Origin: Kitasatospora phosalacinea
GTDB taxonomy: Bacteria > Actinomycetota > Actinomycetes > Streptomycetales > Streptomycetaceae
Assembly: GCF_000716545.1 (NCBI RefSeq)
Contig: NZ_JNWZ01000047.1
Span: 3,197-67,196 of the forward strand
Direction: 5' to 3'
DNA length: 64,000 nt
Both the position numbers and the translations under genes were made by a program. Shown piece by piece: positions 38,026 through 47,307 of the stretch (position 1 is the first letter of the stretch; each line of letters begins with the position of its first letter). The notes beneath the pieces are model-generated. The model did no database searches, was not told the DNA's origin, and worked only from the letters and a program-made list of their open reading frames with translations.

Positions 38026-38204
38026 ACCGGCCCGTCACGGTCCGTCATGGCCGAATCCGGGCGGGTCGACGAACCGTCACAAATCGCCCATAGGGCGTCA
38101 GGAAAGTTTCACTGCACCCAGGAAGGCGCTTGGAATCATGGGGTCCATAGGATTAACGTTTGATAACGCAGCGCGGTCGGCAACGCCGTAACCATGCGGC
38201 ACCG

Positions 38205-38352
38205 TGCGCCACGCCTAATCCATCCGGTCCTGCCCCCGCGGCAGGTCCAGGAGCCGGGGAACCACTTTCCACCGGGGTGAATCGGGACGGCCCTGGGCCC
38301 GACCGTAGGAGACCTTCCACCTCCGAACCCGTCAGCTAACCCGGTCGGCGGC
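38205..38352 (+). ncRNA. ydaO-yuaA type cyclic di-AMP riboswitch
   Basis: The stretch carries the conserved blocks of this riboswitch class in order: GCCTAATCC, GGGGAACC, GGGGTGAATCGG, the variable stem, GTAGGAGACC, and the 3' block CGAACCCGTCAGCTAACC, ending in GGCGG before a Shine-Dalgarno run. It stands directly before an M23 peptidase gene, the same type of target (with rpfA-like genes) reported for this riboswitch in streptomycetes. High c-di-AMP should reduce expression. Boundaries are approximate. Confidence 0.85.
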
Positions 38353-38375
38353 AGGGAAGGAAGGAGCGCGCCTCC

Positions 38376-45349: not shown

Positions 45350-46687
45350 ATGGCAACCACGCACCCCGAAACCCGCACCCGGGCGGGGGCCGCGGCCGGA
45401 GCCCCGCGCCTGCGCTGGTCCCCGCTGCTGGCCCTGGCCACCGCCGCCTTCCTCGGCATCGTCACCGAGGCGCTGCCCGCCGGCGTCCTCCCCGAGATGG
45501 CCCGCGACCTGCGGGTCGGCGAATCCGCGATGGGCCAGTCGCTGACCGGCTACGCCCTCGCCACCGGCCTGTCCGCGATCCCGCTGGCCCGGGCCACCGC
45601 GCACTGGTCCCGCAAGCGGCTGGTGCTCGCCGCCGTCGCCGTCCTGCTGCTGGCCGACGCCGTCACCGCGCTCTCCCCGTCCTACCCGCTCACCATGGCC
45701 GTCCGGATCGCCGCCGGCGTCGCCGTCGCCGCGATCTGGGCCGAACTCGTCGGCTACGCCCGCCGGCTGACCCCGCCCGAACTGCACGGCCGGGCCATCG
45801 CCGTCACCGGCCTCGGCGTGCCGCTCGCGCTCTCCCTCGGCATCCCGCTCGGCACCTGGTCCGGCCGGCTGATCGGCTGGCGGCCCACCTTCGCGCTGGT
45901 CGCCGTCCTCGCCGCCGCCCTGCTGCTGTGGATCGCCGCCGCCGTCCCCGACGCCCTCGGCCGCCGCCGCGGCGACCGCCCCGAACCCGTCCGCGCCGCG
46001 CTCCGGCTGCCCGGCGTCCGGCCCGTGCTGTTCGTCACCGGCGCGTACGTCCTCGCCCACAACGTCCTCTACACGTACGTCGCCGCGCTGCTCGACCACT
46101 CCGGCGCGGCCGGCCGCCGCGACCTGCCGCTGCTCGTCCTCGGGCTCGCCTCGGTGCTCGGCCTCGCCGTCACCGGCCTGCTGGTCGACCGGCGGCTGCG
46201 GCACCTCATGCTCGCCGCCACCGCCGCGTTCCTCGCCGCCGCCGGGCTCCTGCTGCTGCCCGCCCCCGCCGCGCCCCTGGTCCTGCTGGCCGCCGCGCTC
46301 TGGGGCCTCGGCTGGGGCAGCGCCGCCCCGCTCTTCCAGACCGCCGTCTCCGACGCCGGCGGCGAGCGCGGCCAGACCCTGCTGGTCGCCACCTGGAACA
46401 CCTCGATGGGCCTCGGCGGCGCCACCGGCGGCCTCCTGCTCGACCTGCTCGGCCCCGGCTCCTTCCCCTGGTTCGCCCTCGCCCTGCTGGTCCCCGTCCT
46501 CACCGTCACCGCCCTGGCCCGCCGCCACGGCTTCCCGCCCCGCCGCGACGCGACCACCCCCGGGACCGCCCCCGCGACCGCCCCCGGGAACGCAGACGGC
46601 CCGCGGGCTGCTCCTCGGACCGCCGCCCCCTGGGGGGACGGCGACCGAGGCACCGGGGATGTGCCGGTGAGCCCGCGGGCCGGGTGA
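45350..46687 (+). CDS. MFS transporter, drug or sugar efflux type
   Basis: 445 residues with twelve membrane helices over residues 25-400, of the AraJ/DHA1-like group (GIVTEALPAGVLPEMARDLR in helix 1, RIAAGVAVAAIWAELVGYAR in helix 4). The C-terminal 40 residues are Pro/Gly/Ala/Arg-rich and coincide with a strongly structured nucleic acid region on the other strand. Probably leaderless. Divergent from merR; export of the compound sensed by MerR is the simple reading. Substrate unknown. Confidence 0.92.
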   Translation: MATTHPETRTRAGAAAGAPRLRWSPLLALATAAFLGIVTEALPAGVLPEMARDLRVGESAMGQSLTGYALATGLSAIPLARATAHWSRKRLVLAAVAVLLLADAVTALSPSYPLTMAVRIAAGVAVAAIWAELVGYARRLTPPELHGRAIAVTGLGVPLALSLGIPLGTWSGRLIGWRPTFALVAVLAAALLLWIAAAVPDALGRRRGDRPEPVRAALRLPGVRPVLFVTGAYVLAHNVLYTYVAALLDHSGAAGRRDLPLLVLGLASVLGLAVTGLLVDRRLRHLMLAATAAFLAAAGLLLLPAPAAPLVLLAAALWGLGWGSAAPLFQTAVSDAGGERGQTLLVATWNTSMGLGGATGGLLLDLLGPGSFPWFALALLVPVLTVTALARRHGFPPRRDATTPGTAPATAPGNADGPRAAPRTAAPWGDGDRGTGDVPVSPRAG

Positions 46688-46813
46688 CTGCTGGGAATTC
46701 GCCTGAGCCGGAGACCTGACGGCCTCACCACTGCACAGGCAGGGGCGGCTCTAGCGAGCAGCCACCTCACGCATCCTGAAGGAACTCAACTCAGGATCAC
46801 CTCCTTTCAGTGT
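46597..46813 (-). ncRNA. Orphan structured leader RNA with perfect Shine-Dalgarno and 7-codon ORF
   Basis: On the minus strand a predicted transcript starts near 46813 and begins with GAAAGGAGGTGATCC, fully complementary to the 3' end of 16S rRNA. A short ORF (MREVAAR, 46774-46751) follows, then a nested fold: P1, 13 bp (46682-46670 with 46609-46597); P2, CACCGG/CCGGTG (46651-46669); P3, CCTCGG/CCGAGG plus CGCCG/CGGCG (46613-46650). No sense ORF follows; downstream is antisense to the MFS gene. It looks like an attenuator leader without its gene, or a regulatory RNA. Not assigned to a known family. Confidence 0.42.
46751..46774 (-). CDS. Seven-residue leader ORF (MREVAAR)
   Basis: ATG 46774 to TAG 46751. 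The AGGAGG core lies about 26 bases upstream of this ATG, further than normal for initiation, so ribosomes may bind upstream and scan or stand by. Evidence is positional only. Confidence 0.35.
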   Translation of the reverse strand: MREVAAR

Positions 46814-46819
46814 GCGGCC

Positions 46820-46849
46820 ACCTTAGGCACCGTCCGCCGGACCAGGCAA
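46820..46849 (-). promoter_or_regulatory. Promoter of the orphan leader RNA
   Basis: Minus strand: -35 TTGCCT (46849-46844), 18-bp spacer, -10 TAAGGT (46825-46820). Predicted start near 46813, 5 bases before the perfect Shine-Dalgarno. Confidence 0.55.
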
Positions 46850-46867: not shown

Positions 46868-46967
46868 CACGACGAAGGCCCGGAGGCGGTGCCTCCGGGC
46901 CTTCGTTGCTACTGAGTAGCGGGGACAGGATTTGAACCTGCGACCTCTGGGTTATGAGCCCAGCGAG
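46868..46967 (-). repeat. 100-bp direct repeat, copy 1: initiator tRNA 3' half plus terminator
   Basis: On the minus strand the unit begins at the anticodon arm of initiator tRNA-Met (CTGGGCTCATAACCCAG, three G:C pairs and anticodon CAT), continues through variable and T arm to the discriminator base (46917), then the natural 3' flank with a rho-independent hairpin. The 5' half (acceptor and D arm) is absent; unrelated sequence joins at 46968. Identical over 100 bp to 47208-47307. Confidence 0.9.
46872..46906 (-). terminator. tRNA terminator hairpin, copy 1
   Basis: 16-bp stem around GAAGGCCCGGAGGC / GCCTCCGGGCCTTC with a 3-base loop; it follows the tRNA half on the minus strand. Confidence 0.85.
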
Positions 46968-47207: not shown

Positions 47208-47307
47208 CACGACGAAGGCCCGGAGGCGGTGCCTCCGGGCCTTCGTTGCTACTGAGTAGCGGGGACAGGATTTGAACCTGCGACCTCTGGGTTATGAGCC
47301 CAGCGAG
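47208..47307 (-). repeat. 100-bp direct repeat, copy 2: initiator tRNA 3' half plus terminator
   Basis: Exact duplicate of 46868-46967, shifted by 340 bp. Its tRNA half is fused to the end of the PrsW gene: the frame of PrsW enters the anticodon arm and stops at the TAA formed by the anticodon loop. The tRNA part is 47257-47307. Confidence 0.9.
47212..47246 (-). terminator. tRNA terminator hairpin, copy 2
   Basis: Same 16-bp stem and 3-base loop as copy 1. It now terminates transcripts coming from the PrsW gene. Confidence 0.85.

Follow-up and report, generated by a model that had tools for sequence, protein, structure and literature searches.

Sequence comparison of the Ms_IGR-5 small RNA of Kitasatospora phosalacinea: a short reading frame and its stop are kept, the peptide is not

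Attenuators of the trp and his type combine a strong Shine-Dalgarno sequence, a short reading frame overlapping a helix strand, alternative pairings, and a 3' hairpin. SgrS/SgrT, RNAIII/hld, and Spot 42/SpfP are dual-function small RNAs (sRNAs) that make a specific peptide, and the pseudoknots of the rpsO and alpha-operon mRNAs regulate ribosomal-protein genes in cis. Here we analysed an element on the minus strand of a 64,000-nucleotide (nt) stretch from Kitasatospora phosalacinea (contig NZ_JNWZ01000047.1), which we call the window and whose positions are used as coordinates throughout. By family comparison, this element is the Ms_IGR-5 sRNA of this strain. Like the attenuators, Ms_IGR-5 showed a frame overlapping a helix strand, alternative pairings, and a 3' hairpin, but it lacked a common downstream gene, conserved control codons, and a conserved peptide. 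It shares a short frame with the dual-function sRNAs; in Ms_IGR-5, however, start, stop, and frame persist although the peptide varies freely. As in the rpsO and alpha-operon mRNAs, a pseudoknot lies beside the ribosome site and would be able to hold or exclude a 30S subunit, but no ribosomal-protein gene was seen at the Ms_IGR-5 loci. From the conservation pattern we consider it somewhat probable that Ms_IGR-5 is a stand-alone RNA and that ribosome transit resets its fold, whichever peptide is made.

The original description of Ms_IGR-5 is RNA 2013;19:74, as cited in PMC4974804. In the excerpts retrieved, the Streptomyces lividans homologue SLIV_16488 is listed as transcribed (PMC8079986), an sRNA transcription unit of S. 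avermitilis matches Ms_IGR-5 (PMC8780764), Ms_IGR-5 overlaps ncMSMEG15794c in Mycobacterium smegmatis (PMC10454040), and ribosome footprints are present on the homologues of M. abscessus and M. smegmatis (PMC4974804). In a literature search on the family, covering such excerpts, neither a function nor a named reading frame or a pseudoknot came to light. A search under guessed M. tuberculosis sRNA names gave no match, and nothing relevant was found among the matches listed for anti-Shine-Dalgarno sRNAs.

An earlier note on this stretch had described an 'orphan' leader. That label does not hold, as the element is a local copy of an Rfam family and scored well over the family cut-off. The window copy was the sole match when this genome was searched with the family model. 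The RNA fold was highly stable (z = −6.8), and none of 200 shuffles was as stable. The family match, the promoter, the Shine-Dalgarno sequence, and the reading frame are as follows.

46591..46813, minus strand: full-length match to RF02471 (Ms_IGR-5, 'Actinobacteria sRNA'), 76.7 bits against a gathering score of 45, E 6.3e-17, model positions 1-184.
46844..46849, minus strand: −35 element TTGCCT, with TTG kept in most class loci.
46820..46825, minus strand: −10 element TAAGGT, with an 18-nt spacer to the −35 element and TANNNT kept in the class loci.
46794..46808, minus strand: extended Shine-Dalgarno sequence GAAAGGAGGTGATCC, a complement of the 3' end of congeneric 16S rRNA.
46751..46789, minus strand: frame of 12 codons from TTG to TAG (M S S F R M R E V A A R); all 154 distinct homologues have it open.

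Re-reading the sequence confirmed the −35 and −10 elements, the Shine-Dalgarno sequence, the ATG...TAG stretch, and the nested fold of the earlier note, each in its place on the minus strand. The promoter was found well beyond this strain. The −10 TANNNT, 11-14 nt before GAAAGG, was present in all 141 class loci (9-18 nt searched) and in 17 of 38 loci from other classes, where 20 were without it and 1 was too short. The −35 TTG, 16-18 nt from the −10 element, was present in 30/30 loci of the own genus and 93/111 other class loci. A promoter and terminator scanner found nothing at the locus, so that the 3' structure, P4, is given here as a putative terminator. With its own conserved promoter and its structured 3' end, Ms_IGR-5 is probably an independent transcript.

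The 15-mer GAAAGGAGGTGATCC occurred only once in the 7.6 Mb draft. Its partner GGCTGGATCACCTCCTTTC, which we take to be the 16S rRNA 3' end, was found in 9 and 9 copies in two congeners and in 6 copies in one genome of the same family, and gave 0 hits in the draft of the strain itself. The pairing along 15 bases that had been claimed therefore holds for the congeners, and for this strain we infer it.

The reading frame was followed over 179 loci, 154 of them distinct, anchored on the GAGGT motif and on the Shine-Dalgarno sequence, for which GGAGGTG or GGGGGTG was required; related sequences were counted separately and are not independent events. A pattern that included the usual stop CTAG (within 4 substitutions) located 119 of the 179 loci, and model coordinates located the other 60. 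L068, which reads ATG...TGA in frame, was omitted from the anchored set, L141-L148 are repeats of genomes already sampled, and L189-L193 and L254 were excluded. One frame was open from the Shine-Dalgarno sequence to the stop in every distinct homologue, while the other two were open in only 64/154 and 16/154, with a stop in the body in 90/154 and 138/154, respectively. A stop at the end site was present in 154/154, against 0 and 0 for the other frames (TAG 137, TGA 10, TAA 7). It began 15 nt from the G of GAG, except for 14 nt in four loci, whose frame was picked by its stop, and 18 nt in L080, which had lost the usual stop and ended one codon further. A canonical start at Shine-Dalgarno spacing was found in 138/154 (TTG 71, ATG 52, GTG 15), compared with 7 and 7 in the other frames. 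These starts sat 6-11 nt after GGAGGTG (4-12 searched), and the frames were 10-15 codons long. The first base was variable and TG was kept, and thus the position behaved as expected of a start codon.

In the window the frame reads TTG AGT TCC TTC AGG ATG CGT GAG GTG GCT GCT CGC TAG. The earlier note had read ATG...TAG at 46774-46751, encoding MREVAAR. This stretch is present as described, but its start is not, because the ATG is internal codon 6 and becomes ACG, ACA, or ACT in most other genera, while xTG is kept at the TTG position (46789-46787). The ATG at 46774 was therefore rejected as the start; it is unconserved and lies 15 nt farther from the Shine-Dalgarno sequence. A near-cognate codon at the start position was seen in L051, L151, L154, L159, L161, L164, L172, L248, and others, where chance is possible. 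Such lineages may have either non-AUG starts or weakened initiation. The ATT starts are reminiscent of the IF3-controlled infC start.

A second set comprised 60 fetched loci found only by R1, a covariance model built from 116 sequences; weak and further R1 loci were excluded. Since R1 picked this set, the motif in it is not independent, and the frame was unscored by R1 except via base conservation. Of these loci 58 could be anchored (54 distinct), and the frame was open in 58/58, with a canonical start in 52, a near-cognate start in 6, and another phase in 7; the two remaining frames were blocked in 37/58 and 49/58. The two unanchored loci, L208 and L234, showed ATT or ATA...TAG in frame by eye.

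The peptide behaved differently from its frame. Codons 2-5 varied widely among the loci, and the C-terminal end, -EVAAR or -EVTAR-like in many loci, was EVTGC, EVMRR, or EVPDR in others. L173, L178, L179, and L182, together with seven second-set loci, read the conserved motif in another phase, with start and stop still in frame. The peptide therefore cannot be the conserved item. By comparison, frame and stop are kept and the peptide is not conserved, and selection would act on ribosome passage and the position of the stop rather than on the peptide. These data bear directly on the idea that Ms_IGR-5 is a dual-function sRNA acting through its short peptide. The kept frame, the similar C-terminal ends in many loci, and the footprints reported on homologues in the excerpts of PMC4974804 would suit it, but the varied residues 2-5, the divergent ends, and the group in another phase speak against it, and the C-terminal likeness is explained by pairing in helix P2 (below). 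We regard this idea as very unlikely.

The fold was compared on a MAFFT alignment (A1) of 116 sequences, which remained after 52 near-duplicates were taken out of the 179 loci and 11 more were removed by hand; R1 was built from it. The helices found are given below.

46810..46814, minus strand: P1a 5' strand CACAC, close to the presumed 5' end of the RNA, pairing with 46768-46772 with one A.C mismatch in this strain.
46768..46772, minus strand: P1a 3' strand GCGTG, supported by covariation in A1.
46791..46797, minus strand: P1b 5' strand ATCCTGA, pairing with 46773-46779.
46773..46779, minus strand: P1b 3' strand TCAGGAT, with weaker covariation in A1.
46758..46766, minus strand: P2 5' strand GGTGGCTGC, the last coding codons, found de novo by RNAalifold.
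46683..46691, minus strand: P2 3' strand GCAGTCACC, found by RNAalifold and covariation.
46703..46757, minus strand: P3 hairpin region, whose foot holds the stop codon; in a gappy alignment, 71.5% of its cells were paired and its covariation score exceeded all 500 shuffles.
46692..46704, minus strand: unpaired segment AGGCGAATTCCCA, conserved among homologues.
46597..46682, minus strand: P4, the 3' three-way junction, with a 13-base-pair (bp) outer stem, hairpin a (46669-46651), and hairpin b (46650-46613).

The nested fold that had been proposed at 46682-46597 is present with its 13-bp outer stem and two hairpins. Its boundary had to be moved, as the fold extends upstream of 46682, where it takes in P2 and P3 and, as judged by comparison, also P1a and P1b. 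Compensatory stem changes among relatives, whose absence would have spoken against the proposal, were abundant. Over P1a, P1b, and P2 together, 94.0% of 2060 cells were paired, against at most 39.1% for slid versions, and 176 cells had changed on both sides compared with 41.4 (standard deviation 5.1) in shuffles. The covariation score was 0.314 against 0.132. In P1a, where a CACG-like 5' end pairs with a CGUG-like strand directly before AGGUG, 97.3% of cells were paired, 3/4 pairs had changed on both sides, and all four Watson-Crick types occurred at two pairs. The P1b core was paired in 92.0% of cells, with 1/4 pairs changed on both sides and the closing pair present in 114/120. P2 was found unguided by RNAalifold on A1, pairing GGUGGCUGC with GCAGUCACC. 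In the 120 rows of the class, P2 was paired in 95.3% of cells and had 69 cells changed on both sides (shuffle maximum 31). New loci gave further P2 pairs such as GGTACCCGG with CCGGGTACC. P2 runs of at least 8 contiguous pairs were found in 30/58 second-set loci, compared with a maximum of 24 for re-dealt partners, and 28/58 fell short of 8. The minimum-energy fold of the window included P2, P3, and the three-way junction P4. Comparison thus supports P1a, P2, and the pseudoknot described next, and P1b and P3 more weakly.

A pseudoknot joins the frame to the 3' domain.

46772..46776, minus strand: pseudoknot strand GGATG within codons 5-6, pairing with CATCC at 46657-46661.
46657..46661, minus strand: hairpin a loop CATCC, the pseudoknot partner, with RUCC conserved in the class.

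RUCC was present 18-27 nt beyond P2 in 141/141 class loci, and a hairpin of at least 4 bp surrounded it in 136/141, a few at a different offset. It pairs with GGAY of codons 5-6. The Y:R pair was formed in 120/120 distinct rows (shuffle maximum 112), and its change outside the own genus rests on three loci. The next pair was formed in 93/120 (G-C 50, U-A 21, A-U 16), with a shuffle mean of 56.8 and maximum of 71; without the own genus it was Watson-Crick in 74/107, against a shuffle maximum of 53. A sixth pair was tried and rejected, as it was paired in 11/120. The own genus had GGAUG with CAUCC, most others GGACN with NGUCC, and other classes GGACC with GGUCC; L149 showed UCGACC with GGUCGA. 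Five or more Watson-Crick pairs in a row were found in 120/152 distinct loci, whereas re-dealt partners gave 53 on average and at most 69. This count omits L173, L178, L179, and L182, which have a plain hairpin. As the same GGAY forms the 3' strand of P1b, P1b and the pseudoknot are mutually exclusive. The layout of a ribosome-controlled attenuator seen by the earlier note was recovered in this respect, since a conserved short frame appears to overlap one arm of alternative helices.

The long Shine-Dalgarno sequence together with the pseudoknot before the start complex could also serve as a ribosome decoy that sequesters 30S subunits, and the trapping mechanism of the rpsO mRNA is comparable. 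GAAAGGAGGTGGTCC or a close variant was present in the anchored loci, but the GGAGGTG or GGGGGTG core was demanded by the anchor and is thus no test. The pseudoknot immediately downstream of the start codon and the near-cognate starts of some lineages fit a decoy as well. However, a decoy needs neither a stop nor an open frame, and both were kept in 154/154 and 58/58 loci. We consider the decoy unlikely. A regulatory RNA that ribosomes engage is supported by the conserved ribosome site, the short frame, and the compensatory stem changes. The earlier suggestion of a regulatory RNA that binds the 16S 3' end or 30S subunits survives in the sense of the Shine-Dalgarno pairing, but as a pure 16S or 30S decoy it leaves the kept stop and the open frame unexplained.

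The RNA shares with RF02471 the 5' Shine-Dalgarno sequence, the GUGAGGUGGCUGC motif, GGCGAAU...GCAGUCACC, and the 3' stem. It differs in that helix 1 of the consensus (positions 14-19 with 55-60), which pairs the Shine-Dalgarno sequence with the end of the frame, was paired in 89.7% of cells in A1 but showed 0 compensatory cells and no excess over shuffles. The printed consensus structure line is also without P1a, P2, and the pseudoknot. The 5' block GAAAGGAGGUGAUCC is shared with the Caulobacter sRNA CC2171 (RF01867), which gave a weak match at 46742-46816. Membership in CC2171 was rejected (22.6 bits against a cut-off of 75). On the strength of this block, an sRNA with a full-length Shine-Dalgarno sequence may exist in another phylum. 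A literature search on CC2171 gave no match.

The genes downstream of the RNA were called crudely, and their names are tool matches for MFS, PrsW, MerR, and Methyltransf_4 and a reading of the sequences for the other products. The nearest supported downstream frame in 119 loci was on the same strand in 45 and on the opposite strand in 61, and no such frame turned up in 13; in L121-L188 (n = 60) these values were 12, 24, and 24, respectively. In the own genus, one same-strand membrane-protein family followed the RNA in 15/30 loci. An example is L004, where it lies 265-1414 downstream of the GAG motif; the window has a convergent MFS gene there instead. Genes seen in other groups were those for CitA or for a substrate-binding protein and, in convergent orientation, nitrobindin-like or PdxH genes; the CitA, nitrobindin-like, and PdxH types recurred there. 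No downstream gene family common across lineages was found among the loci examined.

In some lineages, a cis-acting leader or attenuator would govern read-through to the gene that follows it, and in others, including the window, that gene would have been lost or changed. The strong Shine-Dalgarno sequence, the short frame overlapping a helix, the mutually exclusive pairings, the 3' hairpin domain, and the same-strand genes counted above would all be expected of it. However, no family was shared across lineages, the opposite-strand and missing genes were many, and the window gene is antisense, all this within the crudeness of the gene calls. We judge a cis leader improbable as an account of the family. 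An attenuator whose gene was lost, as the earlier note had put it, was not borne out, because the lineages have no same-strand downstream gene in common and the RNA is headed by a conserved promoter of its own. Since the membrane-protein family recurs in 15/30 loci, a cis role could still apply within the own genus.

The MFS frame of the window (45350-46687; Pfam match ending at residue 360 of 445) is antisense to the RNA, and P4 overlaps its predicted 3' end. This overlap would fit antisense control of the mRNA of this convergent gene. Even among loci of the genus, however, the RNA is kept while its downstream neighbour varies, and antisense control is scarcely credible. A conserved overlap with the MFS gene was looked for and not found, as the downstream gene varies within the genus.

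A fold reset by ribosome passage, with the RNA acting in trans or on the ribosome, is the most economical reading, because frame and stop are kept, the peptide is not, and there is no common downstream gene. The ribosome would bind the extended Shine-Dalgarno sequence, located between P1a and P1b, initiate at TTG, and run 12 codons to a stop just past P2 at the foot of P3. On its way it would meet the pseudoknot and P1b partners in codons 5-6, P1a in codons 6-8, and P2 in codons 8-11. Initiation and transit would open P1a, P1b, P2, and the pseudoknot, and release would let the pairings reform. Judged by the usual ribosome footprint, a ribosome that has reached the stop would mask the 5' strand of P2, with the conserved GCGAAUUCCCA and GCAGUCACC left free. 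The RNA would thereby toggle between two forms, one untranslated and pseudoknotted and the other translated, and may report translation status, that is, free 30S subunits and initiation capacity. It might then act in trans via the freed segment GCGAAUUCCCA-GCAGUCACC or via the ribosome itself.

Several observations weigh against this reset of the fold by ribosome transit. Neither P1a nor P1b was found by RNAalifold on A1, which gave a 3-bp hairpin within the Shine-Dalgarno sequence instead. In the minimum-energy fold of the window, the Shine-Dalgarno sequence (CUGAA.GGAG) pairs with UUCCUUCAG, codons 3-5, and not in P1b, and P1a is absent from that fold in its proposed register. The number of pairs changed on both sides was 10, which 51/500 shuffles matched. 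As the covariation of P1b is weaker than that of the pseudoknot, a switch between the two can only be proposed. L173, L178, L179, and L182 had no three-way junction and no pseudoknot, and L178 showed a plain hairpin and then a T run. A near-cognate codon (CTG, ATC, ATT, ACG, ATA) was all that stood at the start spacing in 16/154 loci and in 6/58 of the second set, and such codons occurred by chance about as often in the other frames (28/154 and 35/154). The membrane-protein family of the own genus belongs here too. The published transcripts and footprints come, in the excerpts retrieved, from homologues in other species and not from this strain, and the authors of PMC4974804 caution there that footprints are common on non-coding RNAs. 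Finally, the same 12/70 congeners (including G039, G058, and G059) were without the RNA under strict filters by both RF02471 and R1; three of these 12 are single-contig assemblies.

The arrangement was present beyond this genome in the genus, class, and phylum samples, as the earlier note would have required. Searches of more than 40 genomes were run with strict filters. RF02471 at E <= 0.001 matched 58/70 genus, 249/394 class, and 70/396 phylum-sample genomes, with 35/396 of the latter over the gathering cut-off of 45. Nearly all matching genomes listed had it in one place. From other classes, 38/42 RF02471 matches were fetched, and 38/38 showed the same blocks by reading, down to about 25 bits. 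R1 detected 144/396 phylum, 58/70 genus, and 246/388 class genomes; some of its 116 sequences came from the same phylum sample, and its E-values are rough. In the phylum sample it thus doubled detection (144 against 70 of 396 genomes). The RNA extends beyond its own class within the phylum, in many cases scoring under the RF02471 cut-off. A tentative proposal, possible rather than probable, is that Ms_IGR-5 is a sensor of translation status present in many of the phylum's lineages. It would be a gene-less message whose only consequential product is the passage of a ribosome. Initiation would part the Shine-Dalgarno sequence and P1b, transit would undo the pseudoknot and P2, and the refolded or freed 3' segment would act in trans on RNAs, a protein, or the ribosome, giving the cell a readout of free ribosomes or initiation capacity.

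Two other features of the window were recorded. A perfect 100-nt direct repeat lies on the minus strand at 46868-46967 and 47208-47307. It consists of the 3' part of tRNA-Met(CAU) and a terminator-like hairpin, and both copies are without a proper 5' half. ARAGORN found one or two tRNA-Met genes in 16/18 loci of the own genus, including L001, the locus of the window. The repeat has the appearance of scars left at a tRNA by integration or rearrangement, or of an artefact of the assembly. A c-di-AMP riboswitch (RF00379, 72.2 bits) lies at 38202-38365 on the plus strand.

The comparison corrects the structure model of RF02471. Curation lists this family as a non-coding sRNA gene; our results instead make it look like a minimal message, with a kept ribosome site and a frame whose peptide is irrelevant. 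If ribosome transit is indeed the selected function, Ms_IGR-5 would represent an old and widespread coupling of RNA fold to translation.

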